Shown: positions 3,160 to 64,000 of the stretch, one piece after another | Layout of the letters: each line of letters starts with the position of its first letter | Numbering within the stretch: the first letter of the stretch is position 1 | Assembly (NCBI GenBank): GCA_964035015.1 | Contig: OZ036012.1 | Span: 932,028-996,027 of the forward strand | Source: Corallium rubrum | Taxonomy: Eukaryota > Cnidaria > Anthozoa > Scleralcyonacea > Coralliidae | Direction of reading: 5' to 3' | Length of the DNA stretch: 64,000 bases | Translations under genes and position numbers: made by a program | The notes under the pieces: model-generated | Told to the model about the DNA's origin: nothing | The model's database searches: none | Seen by the model: only the letters and a program-made list of their open reading frames with translations

Positions 3160-3288
3160 GGCTATGTGCACACGGTAACGTTTCCGAGCGTTTTCGTATT
3201 GTTCACTGTTCTCAAGGGAATCGAGAACAATCAGCTCATTACTTGAAACAATACGAAAACGCTCGGAAACGTTACCGCGTGTGCACAT
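3160..3288. mobile_element. Palindromic MITE, family B, copy 1
   Basis: Arms of about 45 bp (GGCTATGTGCACACGG, then CGAGCGTTTTCGTATTG) face their reverse complement with few mismatches. The GGC-type ends flanked by TAA/TTA are compatible with a PIF/Harbinger-type MITE. The second copy is at 3,908-4,038. Confidence 0.65.
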
Positions 3289-3776
3289 AAGTATAGGTTA
3301 GATAATGAACTCGAGTGTTCTATGGGATATAGTGCCGAGCATAGATAGAAAGCCACGAGGGCCGCAGGCCGAGTGGCTTTCTATCTATGCGAGGACACTA
3401 TATCCCATAGGACACGAGAGTTCATTATCTAACCGACTTAGAATATGATCATACCCCACTGAGCTAATTCTGTGGAAGAATCTATATTCTATGTTTCTGG
3501 CAGAAAATGTATGCTTTTATTGGGTTAGAAAGAACAGATTTTTTTCGTTTTTGTTGATGTTTGCATTATTTTTTGGTTATGAATATCTTCTAGTGAGTTT
3601 ATGTAATAATTAGTATGCTCTATACACTCATTAGTATGCTCTATATAGAGCATACTAATGAGTGTATAGAGCATACTAATTAGTTACATAAACTCACTAG
3701 TGAATACTATGGAATAGAGCATGAAAATTCTGGGCGCTGATTGGCTGAGTGGGTATGATCATATTCTAAGCCTCAA

Positions 3777-4075
3777 TAGACCTCTTTATAATAGCGACGA
3801 ATTTTAATATTCTTTTATTACATCTTAATAAGCCTTTCTGGCCTCGTTTGTTTTTCTTCAATTCAAAAGAATGTTTGCCTCATAACGAGGCCAGAAAAGC
3901 TAATTTAGGCTATGTGCACACGGTACCGTTTCCGAGCGTTTTCGTATTGTTTCAAGTAATGAGCTGATTGTTTTCGATTCCCTTGAGAACAGTAAACAAT
4001 ACGAAAACGCTCGGAAACGTTACTGTGTGCACATAGCCTTATAGATGCACATAAAAGAATATTTAAAACGTCAGC
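3777..4075. mobile_element. MITE family A, copy 3 (interrupted)
   Basis: The left part has CGACGAATTTTAATATTC and the right part GAATATTTAAAACGTC, matching family A ends. It is split by a family B copy at 3,908-4,038, and the whole sits in the centre of the surrounding fold-back. Confidence 0.5.
3908..4038. mobile_element. MITE family B, copy 2
   Basis: The ends GGCTATGTGCACACGG and GTGTGCACATAGCC are inverted repeats. TTA lies next to both ends, consistent with a 3-bp target duplication. The interior is inverted relative to copy 1. Confidence 0.65.
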
Positions 4076-4674
4076 AAGAGATTCACCAAGCGGAAAACGA
4101 AATCTTATTATAATTAGAATATGATCATACCCACTCAGCCAATCAGCGCCCAGAATTTTCATGCTCTATATTCCATAGTATTCACTAGTGAGTTTATGTA
4201 ACTAATTAGCATGCTCTATATACTCATTAGTATGCTCTATATAGAGCATACTAATGAGTGTATAGAGCATACTAATTAGTTACATAAACTCGCTAGAAGA
4301 TATTCATAACCAAAAAATAATGCAAACATCAACAACAACGAAAAAAATCTGTTCTTTCTAACCCAATAAGAGCATACATTTTCTGCCAGAAACATAGAAT
4401 ATTAGATTCTTCCACAGAATTAGCTGAGTGGGGTATGATCATATTCTAAGTCGGTTAGATAATGAACTCTCGTGTCCTATGGGATATAGTGTCCTCGCAT
4501 AGATAGAAAGCCACTCGGCCTGCGGCCCTCGTGGCTTTCTATCTATGCTCGGCACTATATCCCATAGAACACTCGAGTTCATTATCTAACCTATACATAT
4601 AAGTGCCCAGCACAAAACACGAATAAAAGCCATGAACAAAAGGACATAAAAAACATAATATTTAATAATCTAAC

Positions 4675-6450: not shown

Positions 6451-6880
6451 GACATGGGACATGAAAGAATATGAAAGCAATTTCCTTGTATGTATTATAC
6501 CACGTATTCAGTCAAGTTAATAATTGATGAGTTAATTAGCCAATCAGAGAAAAATATTTGGTCACGTGTATGAGTTTTCAAACCAGGTAAATGTCGCGCT
6601 AACTGAATTTATGATTAAGAAATCAGATAATAAACGATACAAATAAAGAACCGTTTATTACCACATTTCTTAATTATAAATTCAACGTGAAACCATTGTC
6701 TATAAATCTAACCCTCTACTAAAAACCCGTTAATCGTGTTATTACTAGGGAGGGATTTCAAACTCGAGAACAACAAAAATCACTCGGCCTATTACCTCGT
6801 AATTTTCAATGTTCTCTCGTGTTCGTAACCCCTGGTAAAACTGACATTCCAACTCGTTTATGAAGTATTACATAATATAT

Positions 6881-7075
6881 CAATCTACAGACACGCACGC
6901 GTGTACTACGTGTAGTACAATAAGTGTAGCTTAGAACAATCTAAATGTGAGAACACCACGTATAGCAATCGTCGGTGACAAATGCTTCTGAAACAATAGT
7001 AGTAGTGCGCACAGCATCCAGAGAGCATAAGGTGGTATATAGGGCCAGAGTGCTCGAATTGCAACAATATATGGC
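6881..7075 (-). repeat. Decayed hammerhead-repeat monomer
   Basis: On the plus strand CAATCTACAGACAC, TGTAGCTTAGAACAATCT, ATCGTCGGTGACAA and CCAGAGTGCTC occur in the same order and spacing as in the ribozyme repeat at 17,838-18,060. The central core is mutated: the position of CTGATGA now reads CTTATTG on the minus strand. This is a second, inactive locus of the same repeat family. Confidence 0.55.
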
Positions 7076-7089
7076 ATATATGCCATGTA

Positions 7090-16365: not shown

Positions 16366-17487
16366 TTTTTTCTCACCTCTTCACCATAAGAACCCGCAGA
16401 GTTGCCTGCGAAGAAGACTGGGAAGTCCAAAAATGTAATATTAATTACAACAGCCAGAGTTTTTACACATCTCTTCTATATTTTTTAATTACAAGATTGA
16501 AAACAACAAGGGTTTTGACGTGATATACACACAATTAAATAATCAAACCTCTTGCACTGATGCTGTGGCAAAATTGCCAATGCAATTCCAAGTGCTTAAT
16601 ATGTTTTGACAAATCTAGAGCTTTAATAAAATTATACAGCAATGTACCGTTGAGCCCATCACATTATTTTGTAGAATTTGTATAAGTCAAAACACACACA
16701 CGCAGATAGTAGCGTCTGATCAGAACGCCACACCAATATACACCTAAAAATAGAATAAAACAACTGAAATCTCCTAGAGGGAATCATTCCAAATGTGTGT
16801 TTGATATTGTATAGAAATTGATATCTTACTTCGACAAGATAAACTCTCGATAAATAAATAAATAAATATTAAATAAATAAATATTAAATAAATAAATAAA
16901 TATTATATAAATAAATATTTTCAACCAGAGAACGTCTCCAAAATCATCAAGATAAACTCTCTCCACCGAAATTGTAAGACAGTTCACAAGTGTGTTCAGA
17001 GGTTAGAGAACAAGGAAGATTCATTGCCAATTTAGAAAATCCATCGCCGTCGTTGTGCTTACCACTTCAAACTTACATGCAACTTGTATGAGCAAATCCT
17101 TCTGGCGTATGTGATGTAAGTTGTGGGAAGAAACTTCCTACGTCACAAAACCTCATCATTAATATGATCAACATCCCTCAGTATTGCCTATTTCGATTCG
17201 TTGACGACTATACATAGCTCGGCAAAGAGGCCTGGACATGAGACACAGGTAACCCATGTCAAGATTAGTTTGCTGCCTAATTCGGCAGCAATAATAAAAC
17301 AATTATTGAATTCGGTTATCGCATGATATCAAGAATTATCTAGGTCTCTGTTTGTATTATCCGCCTCAGCCTTCGGCTTCGGCAGATAACACAAACCTCG
17401 GCCTTCAAAGTTCTTTTGGCTTATTTTAGGTTCTAAGTTCTTTTAAGATGTCTGATATTCCTATTCCAGGCGTAGAATTTGGCTAAT
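16366..17487. other. Non-coding with (AAAT)n
   Basis: An AAAT-rich microsatellite lies at about 16,852-16,920. A small inverted word pair (TTATCTGCC / GGCAGATAA type) lies near 17,355-17,390. No gene is supported. Confidence 0.4.
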
Positions 17488-17729
17488 TTATGCGCCCGCG
17501 ATGCATTGCGCTGACTGTCCCTCATTTCTGGCCATGGTGTTGTTGAGCACTCTGTGAAGTTGCCGTGGGTACCTATTAGCGAATGCAACGCTCACTATCC
17601 TTGTGGAAGTTTGAGCACTCTGGGCCCATGCGCACTTCACGCTATCTGAATGTACTTCACCACATGCGGTTGTCACCGACGATTGCATGTGTATAAGTAA
17701 TTGATGAAATTCATTCAGATTGTTCCAAG

Positions 17730-17771
17730 CTACACTGATGAGCTGTGGTACAGCGAAACACGTGTCTGTAG
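17730..17771 (+). ncRNA. Type I hammerhead ribozyme
   Basis: All invariant bases are present. Stem I is 17,730-17,734 CTACA with 17,767-17,771 TGTAG, extended outward by TTC(C)AA against TTGAA with a bulge. The core CTGATGA is at 17,735-17,741. Stem II is GCTGT (17,742-17,746) with ACAGC (17,750-17,754), closed by GGT. GAA is at 17,755-17,757. Stem III is AC/GT with loop ACGT (17,758-17,765). Cleavage is predicted after C17,766 in a GTC triplet. The short stem III and open, bulged stem I are typical of metazoan repeat-encoded hammerheads. Confidence 0.85.
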
Positions 17772-17867
17772 ATTGAACTATGTATGCTCCTTCACTTCGG
17801 TGTTGTTGAGCACTCTGTGAAGTTGCCGTGGGTACTGGCCGAACTGAAGCAGCATACATAGTTCAAT

Positions 17868-17909
17868 CTACAGACACGTGTTTCGCTGTACCACAGCTCA
17901 TCAGTGTAG
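17868..17909 (-). ncRNA. Type I hammerhead ribozyme (mirror copy)
   Basis: This is the reverse-complement copy in the second arm. TCATCAG on the plus strand (17,898-17,904) is the CTGATGA core on the minus strand, with the same stem I (TGTAG/CTACA), stem II and GTC cleavage triplet. The core sequence is identical to the plus-strand copy. Confidence 0.85.
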
Positions 17910-18060
17910 CTTGGAACAATCTGAATGAATTTCATCAATTACTTATACACATGTGATCGTCGGTGACAACCGCATGTGGGACAGCATTGGTGAAGTACAT
18001 TCAGATAGCGTGAAGTGCGCATGGGCCCAGAGTGCTCAAACTTCCACAAGGGTAGTGAGC

Positions 18061-18063
<3 letters not shown>

Positions 18064-18115
<52 letters not shown>

Positions 18116-18144
18116 CTGATATATATAACTGATATATATATAAC

Positions 18145-18203
<59 letters not shown>

Positions 18204-18218
18204 CTGAAAGTTTATGTA

Positions 18219-18272
<54 letters not shown>
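18064..18272. repeat. (TA)n tracts with fold-back
   Basis: Two long TA runs are separated by GAAAGTTTATGTAGTC, whose reverse complement GACTACATAAACTTTC follows the second run, so this segment is itself an inverted repeat. Confidence 0.85.
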
Positions 18273-18274
<2 letters not shown>

Positions 18275-18438
18275 TACATAAACTTTCAGTTCAATTTTCT
18301 CACCAAATATCATTCCCATCTTTAAGATTATTGACGAATACGAACGTTTACACCCATTCGCATCACAAGCACTTTACAACATTCGTGTCCGTTTTGTATT
18401 GGATATACAATCTTTCGCCTTCGGCTCGAGCTTAAATA

Positions 18439-21744: not shown

Positions 21745-21918
21745 TAAGGATTTAGGGTGAAGGAAAATTCGAGTGTAGAATATATACATTATAAGACCAA
21801 ACCGGGACCAGTTGCGAAAAATGCAACTACACAGGCCTTCCGGCAGGAATTGAACCCACGACCTTGCGATTCTAGTGCAATGCTCTGACCACTGAGCCAC
21901 GGAGGCCGTTACTTATTA
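21745..21918 (-). mobile_element. tRNA-derived SINE with 13-bp target duplication
   Basis: A tRNA-like head (21,835-21,908, minus strand) has box A TGGCTCAGTGG and box B GTTCAATTC, followed by a tail ending near TTCACCCTAAATCC. The flanks carry TAAAAGAATGCTA at 21,732-21,744 and 21,919-21,931, a perfect 13-bp duplication. This is the single-copy version of the sequence amplified at 52,137-54,632. Confidence 0.85.
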
Positions 21919-32640: not shown

Positions 32641-32931
32641 AATTGCATGTTGTTCGTCAGGGAATTTGAATGTTAGCATGTGGCGAGACAGCCAGCCAAA
32701 GTAGGCATAGACTCCTCAGTATATGTTTTTTGTTTATTTAAGGTTAGCTATAGGGCAGAAGATTTCTGAAACAAGTTGAAACGATAAAGGTGACAAATTT
32801 AAAATGTGCTAAGCTAAGCAACTAACTTCCTCGATATTTTTCACTTACCTACTCAGTATAATAGAATTCTTAGGTTTTCGAACTCCATTTTTAGAGTCAG
32901 ATTGGCTGCAGTATATAGTTCAAACAAACAT

Positions 32932-33615
32932 TTAGTAAGAGTGTAAATAACTCTTTACTGAGAGTGAAAATAACTCTTTGCTGAGAGTGAAAATAACTCT
33001 TTACTAAGAGTGAAAATAACTCTTTAATAAGAGTGAAAATAACCCTTTAATAAGAATGAAAATAAATATTTAATAAGAGTAAAAATAACTCTTTGATAAG
33101 CGTGAAAATAACTCTTTAGTAAGAGTGAAAATAACCCTTAATAAGAGTAAAAATAACTCTTTACTAAGAGTAAAAATAACTCTTTACTACGGAGTGAAAA
33201 TAACTCTTTACTAAGAGTGAAAATAGCTCTTTAATAAGGGTGAAAATAACTCTTTACTGGGAATGAAAATAACTATTTACTGAGAGTAAAAATAACTCTT
33301 TAATAAGAGTGAAAATAACTCTTTAATAAGAGTAAAAATAACCCTTTACTACAGAGTTATTTTTACTCTTATTATAGTGTTATTTTCACTATTTGTAAAG
33401 AGTTATTTTCACTCTCAGTAAAGAGTTATTTTTACTCTTATTAAAGAGTTATTTTCATTCTCAGTAAAGAATTATTTTTACTCTTATTAAAGAGTTATTT
33501 TCACTATTATTAAAGAGTTATCTTCACTCTTATTAAAGAGTTATTTTCACTCTTAATAAAGAGTTATTTTCACCCTCAGTATAGAGTTATTTTTACTCTT
33601 ATTAAAGAGTTATTT
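32932..33615. repeat. 21-bp minisatellite with central inversion
   Basis: About 19 units of the AAGAGTGAAAATAACTCTTTA type run to about 33,350, then about 12 units run in the opposite orientation to 33,615. Immediately beyond is ATTACCAGAAATTTGGG. Its reverse complement also abuts the related array at 38,974, so the array belongs to a defined mobile unit. Confidence 0.85.
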
Positions 33616-34039
33616 TCAATTAACATTACCAGAAATTTGGGTCATTTGTGCCGCTGCTCTCGATCAGTGGCTATATTCTCCTAATACTAGAAATACATTA
33701 ATGCAAACCCCTCGTGTTCATTTTTTATTATTATTAATGCACTCTGCCTTCAATCCCAGGGAAGGGCTACTCTTTCAAACGCAGGATAGGGGTGTACCAC
33801 TGAACCCTTAAATTATGTTGTTTACTCTAGACAAAGGAATTGGCTTCACACAAAATGGCTAAAAATGGTACCCTGTTCCAAACTGAAAGAAAGGAGTAAA
33901 TGACTGCCAGCATATAAGAACAGACCTTGCACCAGATCAAAAGTGTTTTAATTATTACACCGGTACCCTGTTCCAAACTAAAAATGAAAACCATTCCCTT
34001 TCCAGTGGCATATCCCTGTATAGTCAATATATGTTAAGG
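33616..34039. other. Short dispersed duplication
   Basis: GGTACCCTGTTCCAAACT occurs at about 33,868 and 33,962. No gene is supported. Confidence 0.35.
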
Positions 34040-36469: not shown

Positions 36470-36831
36470 AACAAGTGGATACTCCAAACCGCCAACATGG
36501 GTACAATCCCCGACCGGACTTACCGGTCGAAGGGGAATCATGGCGAGAAATGGTGGACATAGAGAGGCGGAGCTAAAGCCCTATTAAACTAGTACCTATG
36601 TCGTGCGATCGTCACAGTTCCGCGGTTCAGAAGAAAAGAGAACAACTAATTTATGCAATGTTGGATGAAATCTTCATTCGATGATCAGAAAATTGTAGCA
36701 ATCGAGGTACCAGGCGGGAATCGTAATCTTGTTATAAAAATTATTGCCCAGCAAATAATTCGTAACAAAGCCATAATAAAATCAAAAGTCGTAAGTAAGC
36801 ATGATAAAAAAATTTTTAATAAAGAACTAAC

Positions 36832-36860
36832 GTTTCGTCACTAACCAGCGACATCATCAG
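36832..36860 (-). ncRNA. Hammerhead-like motif, PLE 3' end
   Basis: The minus strand reads CTGATGA, then hairpin GTCGC(TGGTTA)GTGAC with one G-T pair, then GAAAC and a GTTAGT that can form a 2-bp stem III (AC/GT). The core invariants are present. Stem I is weak in the monomer. Hammerhead motifs in Penelope-like retroelements are established. Confidence 0.6.
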
Positions 36861-36983
36861 AGTGATAAATATTTACTAAAATGTCTCAGCTTTATACCTA
36901 CGCAATTACAAAAATAGATGTGATAGGAGAATAATAGATGAGGGAGACCTCAGAAGTGAAGAGTCACCCGCGAAGGTGAGACG

Positions 36984-37511
36984 TCAGAATAACATTAAAG
37001 GAAAGGATCTAATATTAGCATTAAGTGATGGATTTATTTTTGATATGAGTAAACTTTCTCGGAGAAGGACATTAAATTCTGAATTACCAGATGATAAAAT
37101 AGAAAAGTCATCAAACGAGATAGGATGACCAGTTTGACTCACGTGTGTGGAAATACTAGATAAGGTTGATTGAGAAACTTTGTTTTCGGCGTAAGGTGAA
37201 ATGCCCATATGCTCAGAAGCCCTAATGTGTAAATTTCGGCATGTTTCGCCAATATACAAGGAGTTACATCCTTGGCACGTAAATTTGTAAACCACATGAG
37301 ATCTTAATTGCATAGGAATCCGGTCCTTAAATCGAAAAAAGTTTGAGAGACGGCATGCAGGTCGAAATATAATTCGAAGGTTAATGTGCGGATAGGCTGA
37401 TGAAATTAATCTTCGAAGTTGTGTGCGGATTTGTAAGCCGTGATCACCAGTGAAAGGAAAAAGTATTTCCATAAAAATAGTATTTCCACACACGTGAGTC
37501 AAACTGGTCAT
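36984..37511 (-). pseudogene. Penelope-like GIY-YIG endonuclease domain
   Basis: A 175-codon frame. Residues near 70-100 contain HVVYKFTCQGCNSLYIGETC then RNLHIRASEHMG, giving the VVY (GIY-equivalent) and YIG motifs and the following Arg and His. The C-terminus has HPISFDDFSILSSG. GIY-YIG nuclease is the target-nicking domain of Penelope-like elements. The RT that should precede it is missing. The first codons come from the inverted arm, so the N-terminus is not native. Confidence 0.75.
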
Positions 37512-37652
37512 CCTATCTCGTTTGATGACTTTTCTATTTTATCATCTGGTATTTCAGAATTTAATGTCCTTCTCCGGGAAGGTTTACTCATATCAAAAAT
37601 AAATCCATCATTTAATGCTAATATTAGATCCTTTCCTTTAATGTTATTCTGA
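37440..37652 (+). pseudogene. Inverted duplicate of the endonuclease C-terminus
   Basis: The 70-codon frame repeats HVSQTGHPISFDDFSILSSG and the ending SFNANIRSFPLMLF of the minus-strand endonuclease, on the opposite strand. It is part of the fold-back arm and not a separate gene. Confidence 0.7.
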
Positions 37653-37775
37653 CTTCTCACCTTCGTGGGTGACTCTTCACTTCTGAGGTCTCCCTCATCT
37701 ATTATTCTCCTATCACGTCTATTTTTGTAATTGCGTAGGTATAAAGCTGAGACATTTTTGTAAATATTTATCACT

Positions 37776-37804
37776 CTGATGATGTCGCTGGTTAGTGACG
37801 AAAC
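37776..37804 (+). ncRNA. Hammerhead-like motif, mirror copy
   Basis: CTGATGA at 37,776-37,782, stem GTCGC/GTGAC, GAAAC at 37,800-37,804. Same sequence as the minus-strand motif at 36,832-36,860. Confidence 0.6.
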
Positions 37805-37919
37805 GTTAGTTCTTTATTAAATTTTTTTTTTATCATGCTTACTTACGACTTTTGATTCTATTATGGCTTTGTTACGAATTATTTGCTGGGCAATAATTTT
37901 TATAACAAGATCAGAAAAT

Positions 37920-38973: not shown

Positions 38974-39040
38974 AATGAAGAGTTATTTTTACTCTTATTA
39001 AATAGTTATTTTCACTCTTAGTAAAGAGTTATTTTCACTC
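38974..39040 (+). repeat. GAGTTATTTTCACTCTTA minisatellite, left part
   Basis: Three units. The array is interrupted twice by insertions and resumes at 39,588-39,610 and at 60,195-60,315. Confidence 0.8.

Positions 39041-52053: not shown

Positions 52054-52136
<83 letters not shown>
52050..52136. repeat. (TA)n flanking the satellite array, left
   Basis: A simple AT repeat that directly abuts the first 277-bp unit. Confidence 0.95.
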
Positions 52137-52139
<3 letters not shown>

Positions 52140-53674
52140 CTAAGGATTTAGGGTGAAGGAAAATTCGAGTGTAGAATATATACATTTTAAGACCAAACCG
52201 GGAGCAGTTGCGAAAAATGCAACTACACAGGCCCTCCGGCAGGAATTGAACCCACGACCTTGCGATTCTAGTGCAATGCTCTGACCACTGAGCCACGGAG
52301 GCCGTTGCCGAGAGCTTGATCGCGAGTTCTGTATATATAATAAGGTGGTAATGCCAGGAGAGAATTGGGTATATTATAAATGATATTGGGCATTTCACTC
52401 GATTACATAGCATGTTCTAAGGATTTAGGGTGAAGGAAAATTCGAGTGTAGAATATATACATTTTAAGACCAAACCGGGAGCAGTTGCGAAAAATGCAAC
52501 TACACAGGCCCTCCGGCAGGAATTGAACCCACGACCTTGCGATTCTAGTGCAATGCTCTGACCACTGAGCCACGGAGGCCGTTGCCGAGAGCTTGATCGC
52601 GAGTTCTGTATATATAATAAGGTGGTAATGCCAGGAGAGAATTGGGTATATTATAAATGATATTGGGCATTTCACTCGATTACATAGCATGTTCTAAGGA
52701 TTTAGGGTGAAGGAAAATTCGAGTGTAGAATATATACATTTTAAGACCAAACCGGGAGCAGTTGCGAAAAATGCAACTACACAGGCCCTCCGGCAGGAAT
52801 TGAACCCACGACCTTGCGATTCTAGTGCAATGCTCTGACCACTGAGCCACGGAGGCCGTTGCCGAGAGCTTGATCGCGAGTTCTGTATATATAATAAGGT
52901 GGTAATGCCAGGAGAGAATTGGGTATATTATAAATGATATTGGGCATTTCACTCGATTACATAGCATGTTCTAAGGATTTAGGGTGAAGGAAAATTCGAG
53001 TGTAGAATATATACATTTTAAGACCAAACCGGGAGCAGTTGCGAAAAATGCAACTACACAGGCCCTCCGGCAGGAATTGAACCCACGACCTTGCGATTCT
53101 AGTGCAATGCTCTGACCACTGAGCCACGGAGGCCGTTGCCGAGAGCTTGATCGCGAGTTCTGTATATATAATAAGGTGGTAATGCCAGGAGAGAATTGGG
53201 TATATTATAAATGATATTGGGCATTTCACTCGATTACAAGCATGTTCTAAGGATTTAGGGTGAAGGAAAATTCGAGTGTAGAATATATACATTTTAAGAC
53301 CAAACCGGGAGCAGTTGCGAAAAATGCAACTACACAGGCCCTCCGGCAGGAATTGAACCCACGACCTTGCGATTCTAGTGCAATGCTCTGACCACTGAGC
53401 CACGGAGGCCGTTGCCGAGAGCTTGATCGCGAGTTCTGTATATATAATAAGGTGGTAATGCCAGGAGAGAATTGGGTATATTATAAATGATATTGGGCAT
53501 TTCACTCGATTACATAGCATGTTCTAAGGATTTAGGGTGAAGGAAAATTCGAGTGTAGAATATATACATTTTAAGACCAAACCGGGAGCAGTTGCGAAAA
53601 ATGCAACTACACAGGCCCTCCGGCAGGAATTGAACCCACGACCTTGCGATTCTAGTGCAATGCTCTGACCACTG
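52137..53674 (-). repeat. 277-bp SINE-derived satellite, minus-orientation block
   Basis: Units start with GTTCTAAGGATTTAGGG at 52,137, 52,414, 52,691, 52,968, 53,244 and 53,521, nearly identical. The fifth start is one base early. Each unit contains the full tRNA-derived SINE of 21,745-21,918 plus about 110 bp of former flank. The tRNA-like part (first unit 52,231-52,304) keeps boxes A and B and a near-complete cloverleaf with loop CTAGAAT. The last unit stops abruptly at 53,674 inside the tRNA-like part. Confidence 0.9.
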
Positions 53675-54626
53675 TAGTTGCATTTTTCGCAACTGCTCCC
53701 GGTTTGGTCTTAAAATGTATATATTCTACACTCGAATTTTCCTTCACCCTAAATCCTTAGAACATGCTATGTAATCGAGTGAAATGCCCAATATCATTTA
53801 TAATATACCCAATTCCCCCCTGGCATTACCACCTTATTATATATACAGAACTCGCGATCAAGCTCTCGGCAACGGCCTCCGTGGCTCAGTGGTCAGAGCA
53901 TTGCACTAGAATCGCAAGGTCGTGGGTTCAATTCCTGCCGGAGGGCCTGTGTAGTTGCATTTTTCGCAACTGCTCCCGGTTTGGTCTTAAAATGTATATA
54001 TTCTACACTCGAATTTTCCTTCACCCTAAATCCTTAGAACATGCTATGTAATCGAGTGAAATGCCCAATATCATTTATAATATACCCAATTCTCTCCTGG
54101 CATTACCACCTTATTATATATACAGAACTCGCGATCAAGCTCTCGGCAACGGCCTCCGTGGCTCAGTGGTCAGAGCATTGCACTAGAATCGCAAGGTCGT
54201 GGGTTCAATTCCTGCCGGAGGGCCTGTGTAGTTGCATTTTTCGCAACTGCTCCCGGTTTGGTCTTAAAATGTATATATTCTACACTCGAATTTTCCTTCA
54301 CCCTAAATCCTTAGAACATGCTATGTAATCGAGTGAAATGCCCAATATCATTTATAATATACCCAATTCTCTCCTGGCATTACCACCTTATTATATATAC
54401 AGAACTCGCGATCAAGCTCTCGGCAACGGCCTCCGTGGCTCAGTGGTCAGAGCATTGCACTAGAATCGCAAGGTCGTGGGTTCAATTCCTGCCGGAGGGC
54501 CTGTGTAGTTGCATTTTTCGCAACTGCTCCCGGTTTGGTCTTAAAATGTATATATTCTACACTCGAATTTTCCTTCACCCTAAATCCTTAGAACATGCTA
54601 TGTAATCGAGTGAAATGCCCAATATC

Positions 54627-54632
<6 letters not shown>
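53675..54632 (+). repeat. 277-bp SINE-derived satellite, plus-orientation block
   Basis: The same unit on the opposite strand, beginning within the monomer (TAGTTGCATTTTTCGCAACT) and running through about 3.5 copies. The first copy differs at CCCCCC near 53,815. tRNA-like parts lie near 53,870-53,946, 54,147-54,223 and 54,424-54,500. The 95-residue frames repeated every 277 bp are artefacts. Confidence 0.9.

Positions 54633-54667
<35 letters not shown>
54633..54667. repeat. (TA)n flanking the satellite array, right
   Basis: A simple TA run that closes the array. A similar run closes the left side. Confidence 0.9.
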
Positions 54668-63112: not shown

Positions 63113-63155
<43 letters not shown>

Positions 63156-64000
63156 GGACGGACAGACGGACAGACGGACAGACGGACAGACGGACAGACG
63201 GACAGACGGACAGACGGACAGACGGACAGACGGACAGACGGACAGACGGACAGACGGACAGACGAACAGACGGACAGACGGACAGACGGACAGACGGACA
63301 GACGGACAGACGGACAGACGGACAGACGGACAGACGGACAGACGGACAGACGGACAGACGGACAGACGGACAGACGGACAGACGGACAGACGGACAGACG
63401 GACAGACGGACAGACGGACAGACGGACAGACGGACAGACGGACAGACGGACAGACGGACAGACGGACAGACGGACAGACGGACAGACGGACAGACGGACA
63501 GACGGACAGACGGACAGACGGACAGACGGACAGACGGACAGACGGACAGACGGACAGACGGACAGACGGACAGACGGACAGACGGACAGACGGACAGACG
63601 GACAGACGGACAGACGGACAGACGGACAGACGGACAGACGGACAGACGGACAGACGGACAGACGGACAGACGGACAGACGGACAGACGGACAGACGGACA
63701 GACGGACAGACGGACAGACGGACAGACGGACAGACGGACAGGCGGACAGGCGGACAGGCGGACAGGCGGACAGGCGGACAGGCGGACAGACGGACAGACG
63801 GACAGGCGGACAGACGGACAGACGGACAGACGCACAGACGGACAGACGGACAGACGGACAGACGGACAGACGGACAGACGGACAGACGGACAGACGGACA
63901 GACGGACAGACGGACAGACGGACAGACGGACAGACGGACAGACGGACAGACGGACAGACGGACAGGCGGACAGGCGGACAGGCGGACAGGCGGACAGACG
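63113..64000 (+). repeat. (GGACAGAC)n microsatellite running off the window
   Basis: It begins as (GACA)n at 63,113-63,152 and becomes an 8-bp GGACAGAC array with GGCG variants in clusters near 63,740-63,810 and 63,965. At least 888 bp; the right end is not in the window. The long RLSVCPSV frame is an artefact. Confidence 0.95.

Follow-up and report, generated by a model that had tools for sequence, protein, structure and literature searches.

A tail-to-tail pair of retrozyme-like copies carrying a hammerhead ribozyme motif in Corallium rubrum DNA

How animal retrozymes re-enter the genome is a question raised by a locus in a window of 64,000 nucleotides of Corallium rubrum DNA (the window being the whole stretch analysed), where what looks like a two-copy retrozyme-like mobile element carries a hammerhead ribozyme motif and has its copies mirrored tail-to-tail. 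What is this element, and how could such a pair have come about? According to the available text of a study of these elements, animal retrozymes are units of 170-400 nt with a GC content below 50% and type I hammerheads that are arranged in tandem copies and are present in cnidarians, sea anemones among them (PMC7229834). The same text describes them as transcribed, self-cut, probably circularised by host ligases and perhaps reinserted by Penelope-like machinery, for which role Penelope-like elements are named as a strong candidate (PMC7229834). Judged from its sequence, the locus represents an animal-type non-LTR retrozyme with a probability of about 0.8, a figure that applies to the identity of the element and not to the origin of the pair.

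Layout of the locus and its hammerhead motif

The unit length of 263 bp is given by the spacing of a 37-bp direct repeat whose two copies are 100% identical (Table 1), and 17660-17800 and 17587-17662 are matched in inverted orientation by 17839-17979 and 17988-18063, respectively, both at 97% identity, the two arms joining at GTAC. Upstream of the unit, positions 17250-17535 align to it no better than shuffled sequence does. The only open reading frame (ORF) of at least 120 aa in 17200-18400 is a 124-aa antisense frame, too short for a reverse transcriptase and a GIY-YIG endonuclease, and the reading of the 263-bp unit as a Penelope-like element was rejected on that ground. That the antisense ORF codes for a protein is also thought unlikely, as it is open in the left unit, meets a stop in the right arm and changes frame in relatives (by eye, in some of them, such as P0135 and P0137). 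The unit and the family of its relatives thus appear from their sequences to be noncoding and non-autonomous. A microRNA was considered as well and rejected, the family rows over 17730-17905 and 18200-18290 being long inverted repeats with scores below gathering. Just to the right of the retrozyme pair lies a perfect 90-bp palindrome around (TA)n, at 18202-18291.

Table 1. Coordinates of the features discussed, as positions of the window
Feature	Positions	Strand	Basis or remark
Complete 263-bp retrozyme unit, left arm, hammerhead sense on +	17536-17798	+	direct-repeat spacing
Unit start, copy 1 of the 37-bp direct repeat	17536-17572	+	identical to 17799-17835
Hammerhead motif with outer stem I (GUUC/GAAC), internal loop and inner stem I (CUACA/UGUAG)	17722-17778	+	sequence
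Type I hammerhead core	17730-17771	+	CTGATGA 17735-17741; stem II and loop 17742-17754; GAAA 17755-17758; predicted cleavage C17766/T17767
Truncated second tandem unit, start only, copy 2 of the direct repeat	17799-17835	+	stops at the GTAC of the inverted junction
Inverted arm, running in its sense direction from near unit position 52 to slightly beyond the unit end, hammerhead sense on -	17836-18063	-
Mirrored type I hammerhead core	17868-17909	-	CTGATGA 17904-17898; predicted cleavage after C17873; sequence equal to 17730-17771
(TA)n-rich microsatellite adjoining the 5'-truncated outer end of the inverted arm	18065-18271
Decayed second family copy, CTGATGA altered and hammerhead core lost	6855-7087	-	nhmmer; TA-rich at both ends (by eye)
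Fragment taken to be Penelope-like, inverted pair aligned over 434 bp at 97%	36726-37911		GIY-YIG-like ORF 36984-37538 (-)

The original prediction had placed complete hammerheads, one the mirror image of the other, inside a 263-bp repeat. Its coordinates are right, and a strict type I descriptor (CTGANGA, then stem II >=3 bp, GAAA, stem III >=2 bp, UH and stem I >=4 bp) confirms them as a fact of sequence, with exactly two matches in the 64-kb window, at 17735 (+) and 17904 (-), and 0 matches in 100 shuffles of the window (mononucleotide, in 500-base blocks). The proposed check with Infernal and Rfam is split. At the gathering score the whole window yielded no hammerhead and nine tRNA matches, an outcome that had formally been named as counting against the prediction. 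In a search of 17200-18400 at E <=10 the only hammerhead was RAGATH-1-hammerhead, in both arms, with 16.8 bits versus 56.3 and an E-value of 8.9, and Hammerhead_1 was absent. In favour of the prediction, Hammerhead_1 matched 17730-17771 over its full length (model positions 1-45 of 45) when 17716-17784 was searched alone with laxer filters, scoring 21.7 bits against a gathering score of 34, with an E-value of 0.0014 for 69 bases that becomes about 1 when scaled by length to the full window. Stem III is very short: the descriptor gives it 2 bp, the Rfam drawing 4 pairs and no loop. Since the Hammerhead_1 score lies below gathering, the covariance model is by itself not proof of a hammerhead, and the case for one is made by the descriptor scan together with the conservation of the stretch in relatives.

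In the modelled structures, folding energy does not single out the hammerhead: the drawn hammerhead fold has -9.7 kcal/mol against a minimum of -12.4 kcal/mol for a 63-nt stretch, and three short single-strand folds were no better than shuffles (z 0.69 to 0.84). Closed to a circle, the monomer is predicted to fold at -81.0 kcal/mol, compared with -64.9 on average (sd 4.9) among 100 mononucleotide shuffles, with 65% of its bases paired.

A dispersed family beside TA repeats

Of 38 candidate ORFs, 24 are related at E <=1 to the left arm's antisense frame, and a profile of six trimmed members recovered 67 of 141 candidates at E <=0.01, 17 of which were already in the first list, giving 74 different related ORFs on public contigs. 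Together with the decayed second copy in the window (nhmmer E 1.2e-12 in a search with the right arm, envelope 7087-6855, aligned 7067-6875), these ORFs show that the retrozyme-like repeat occurs beyond the pair, as a dispersed family. The relatives are known as ORF translations only, a partial view, and the 74 include near-duplicates (for example P0122/P0132/P0133, P0138/P0167 and P0175/P0176), so that counts among them are not counts of independent insertions. Exact hammerhead patterns had 0 matches in viral_contigs and 0 in genome_contigs, and of the 31 and 18 pattern matches, respectively, that profile scans for DNA loci returned from these two collections, tblastn confirmed none.

In a 25-row alignment of the first 24 relatives and the window's own frame, all columns conserved to at least 90% (S17-D19, C21, F22, V24, Q26-W32, N34 and L35 in the numbering of the first row) fall within 17722-17778 or at most two residues away, some of this conservation being selection by the search, as relatives were retrieved partly through conserved words. 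By text patterns, the full set of core residues is kept in 37 of the 74 ORFs and a looser set in 56; the looser pattern also admits two ORFs, P0117 and P0119, in which the first copy is without the stem II segment. A direct tandem junction is seen in 11 of the 74, or in 5 by a stricter count of repeated core starts. Five-residue words unique to the inverted junction occur in 0 of the 74 related ORFs, and words common to the unit itself in 5.

The hammerhead frame is visible in 56 of the 74 ORFs, and at least eight residues upstream of it are present in 46 of these. An alternating Tyr-Ile stretch is the translation of (TA)n. In 39 of the 46, such a stretch, of at least one pair, ends 2-9 residues ahead of the core Cys-Phe, and in 21 the distance is exactly 6; an alternative count of the (TA)n junction over all 56 ORFs gave 38 with it, 8 without it and 10 that were too short. 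Of the seven exceptions, three run on from another unit (P0136, P0156, P0172), three are flanked by other sequence (P0125, P0134, P0177), and in P0180 a Tyr-Ile pair lies 19 residues off. YIYI or IYIY occurs anywhere in 41 of the 74 retrozyme-family ORFs compared with 1 of 115 Penelope-related ORFs from the same database, counts that must be taken with caution since (TA)n is free of stop codons and ORF data therefore favour such flanks. Read back through the window's codons, the 3' edge of the element would be GATTGAAC followed directly by (TA)n, some 12 nt beyond the predicted cleavage site.

At the locus itself the arrangement differs from that of the relatives. Whereas their (TA)n-like translation lies beside the 3' end, the right arm is truncated on its 5' side, at about unit position 52, and it is this side that adjoins (TA)n; the left arm has no (TA)n at its outer end, 17536. 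The less expected features are the mirrored pairing and the TA-repeat neighbourhood of the relatives. At the sequence level several traits of a retrozyme are present, namely a type I motif, a length of 263 bp, a GC content of 46%, a full unit with a further 37 bp in tandem, a non-autonomous make-up with no conserved protein, and a dispersed multi-copy family.

Origin of the inverted pair

Over 209 shared positions the two arms are separated by 5 substitutions (at 17598, 17684, 17685, 17789 and 17795) and one 11-nt indel, the 11 nt after 17659 being absent from the left arm, which has probably lost them to judge from the translations of relatives. At the inner end the right arm reads TTCGGCCA and the left arm TTCGGTG, and the mismatches are concentrated there (2/16 versus 3/193, Fisher p 0.048, with the boundary chosen after seeing the data). 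Because the arms diverge, a sequencing or hairpin artefact is unlikely. The 57-nt ribozyme with its outer stem is identical in both arms, which the original prediction had read as suggesting a recent duplication or selection; this is unsupported, as the arms differ elsewhere and identity over the core is expected fairly often, the chance of seeing no difference being roughly 0.2. The difference at the inner end and the crowding of mismatches suggest that the arms may derive from two variant copies, and a snap-back from one RNA would fit incompletely.

Structure prediction agrees with the long hairpin foreseen for a transcript spanning the two arms: for the + strand of 17536-18063 the predicted energy is -418.7 kcal/mol, and all bases of 17726-17779 are paired to the other arm, that is, the ribozyme is paired to its antisense copy. 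As the ribozyme would be buried in this hairpin in a complete two-arm transcript, the inverted pair is more likely inert than regulated, and on the modelled fold it is probably not selected.

The fragment at 36726-37911 presumably is Penelope-like, a name drawn in part from GIY-YIG matches, and from the direction of its ORF we read its inverted pair as head-to-head, with the 3' ends outward. Out of 172 candidates, 115 are relatives of this ORF, whose own match to GIY-YIG is weak (16.7 bits versus 22.6); one of three relatives scanned for this domain, P0012, passes the cut-off (29.6 bits). Its arms were considered as carriers of a hammerhead and dismissed, showing a weak Hammerhead_3 match only (15.0 bits versus 48.5, E 0.52). 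With other close inverted repeats in the same window, and with inverted arrangements documented for Penelope-like elements in the accessible part of the source (PMC3846280), the earlier view of the mirrored arrangement as special is weak. Mobile-element domains are frequent in the ORFs of the window that were scanned (10 ORFs), the kinds seen being Helitron-like, reverse transcriptase, integrase and RNase H.

Several further repeats were observed in the window. A tandem array of 277-bp units at 52135-54639 contains a tRNA-Ser(AGA)-like gene and flips its orientation at about 53674; its full units are 99-100% identical, (TA)n lies at both of its outer ends, and a single related copy is found at 21745-21910 (98%). 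At 32931-33618 a 23-bp tandem array reverses its direction at about 33346, with related arrays at 38978 and 60198. A close inverted repeat at 3287-4600 aligns over 487 bp at 97.7% and is possibly a DNA transposon, and an array of about 111 copies of the octamer GACAGACG occupies 63113-64000, reaching the window end.

How the pair arose can be put as a conditional sequence of events. Multimeric transcripts would cut themselves and then be circularised, and a reverse transcriptase of the non-LTR or Penelope-like type would copy retrozyme RNA at TA-rich targets, the link of Penelope to retrozyme insertion being suggested by analogy. Copying would start about 12 nt beyond the hammerhead cut, so that the template would have crossed the cut or ligation joint, that is, would have been a circle or an uncut multimer, and a short TATGTAT stretch near the start point could base-pair with (TA)n at a nicked target site. 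The tail-to-tail pair would then be an abnormal product of copying, formed by the joining of two cDNAs, by a template jump or by snap-back of the 3' end of the sense RNA. That the pair is such an abnormal reverse-transcription product has about an even chance, which makes it somewhat likelier than a later rearrangement. The full scheme, in which the family integrates at (TA)n at a fixed point about 12 nt past the cut by target-primed copying of circular RNA and tail-to-tail pairs are products of self-priming on the sense template, is more doubtful and is put forward tentatively.

The main competitor, also compatible with retrozyme identity and carrying a real if smaller share of the probability, holds that two copies were inserted independently in opposite directions, or that an inversion or palindromic duplication at the DNA level followed insertion, in either case unrelated to the chemistry of retrotransposition. 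It would account for the 5 substitutions, the 11-nt indel and the inner-end difference between the arms, and it agrees with the other inverted repeats of the window, including the two tandem arrays that flip; yet if the insertions were independent, only chance would have brought both inner ends to nearly one unit position, within about 40 nt. Far less probable, though again compatible with a retrozyme, is that the inverted pair is a functional two-ribozyme device in which the transcript from each side carries one active ribozyme and one antisense regulator or source of double-stranded RNA. The complete and identical core motif on both strands and the pairing of the arms across the full ribozyme in the predicted fold are what such a device would show, but five-residue words unique to the inverted junction occur in none of the 74 related ORFs (in this partial view), the arms diverge outside a core whose identity needs no selection, and close inverted repeats are found elsewhere in the window.

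Two other explanations concern the identity of the element. A chance occurrence of the motif in a repeat of another kind, a shade less probable still than the device, would agree with an Rfam score below gathering and an unremarkable folding energy, but not with the empty result of 100 shuffles or with the hammerhead motif being the best conserved part of the first 24 relatives. An integrated viroid-like or satellite RNA with ribozymes in both polarities, the least probable of all these readings, is suggested by hammerheads that can be read from both strands of the locus; it is opposed by the presence of one type I hammerhead per arm, and hence on one strand per unit, with none of the other types found by Rfam at the gathering score.

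For the retrozyme reading, a fixed (TA)n junction just past the cut, if confirmed on DNA, would mark the start of copying and reveal a template that runs across the ligation joint. The inverted pair also offers a natural case for the effect of an antisense copy in cis on a ribozyme.

Comparison with known systems

Viroid-like circular RNAs with hammerheads in both polarities, as presented in the available part of PMC7761336, resemble the locus in that a hammerhead can be read from both of its strands, but differ in that the 263-bp unit has, by the type I scan, a hammerhead in one polarity only. Penelope-like elements are closer in several respects, since they share hammerheads, direct and inverted repeat arrangements and AT-rich targets, as far as the accessible text goes (PMC3846280, PMC11167929). 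One such protein, studied in purified form, favours AT-rich DNA and initiates reverse transcription within its RNA (PMC11167929). In rotifers, the available part of the source reports Penelope elements with inverted parts and palindromes at the join, most frequently head-to-head, and its authors state that self-priming on the sense template would yield the tail-to-tail form (PMC3846280). The pair described here is tail-to-tail, in contrast to that most frequent head-to-head form (PMC3846280, in the same part), and whereas Penelope elements encode a reverse transcriptase and a GIY-YIG endonuclease, the 263-bp unit cannot.

The words 'inverted' and 'microsatellite' occur 0 times in the main text of PMC7229834, and no inverted animal retrozyme was found in the literature searched, which is not proof of absence. 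The animal non-LTR retrozymes described in the available text of that study, from Acropora, mussel, jellyfish and sea anemone, are like the locus in having a small unit with a type I hammerhead, direct tandems, a GC content below 50% and a self-paired monomer (PMC7229834). To this common plan the locus adds the tail-to-tail inverted copy, and its relatives add (TA)n beside the 3' side.
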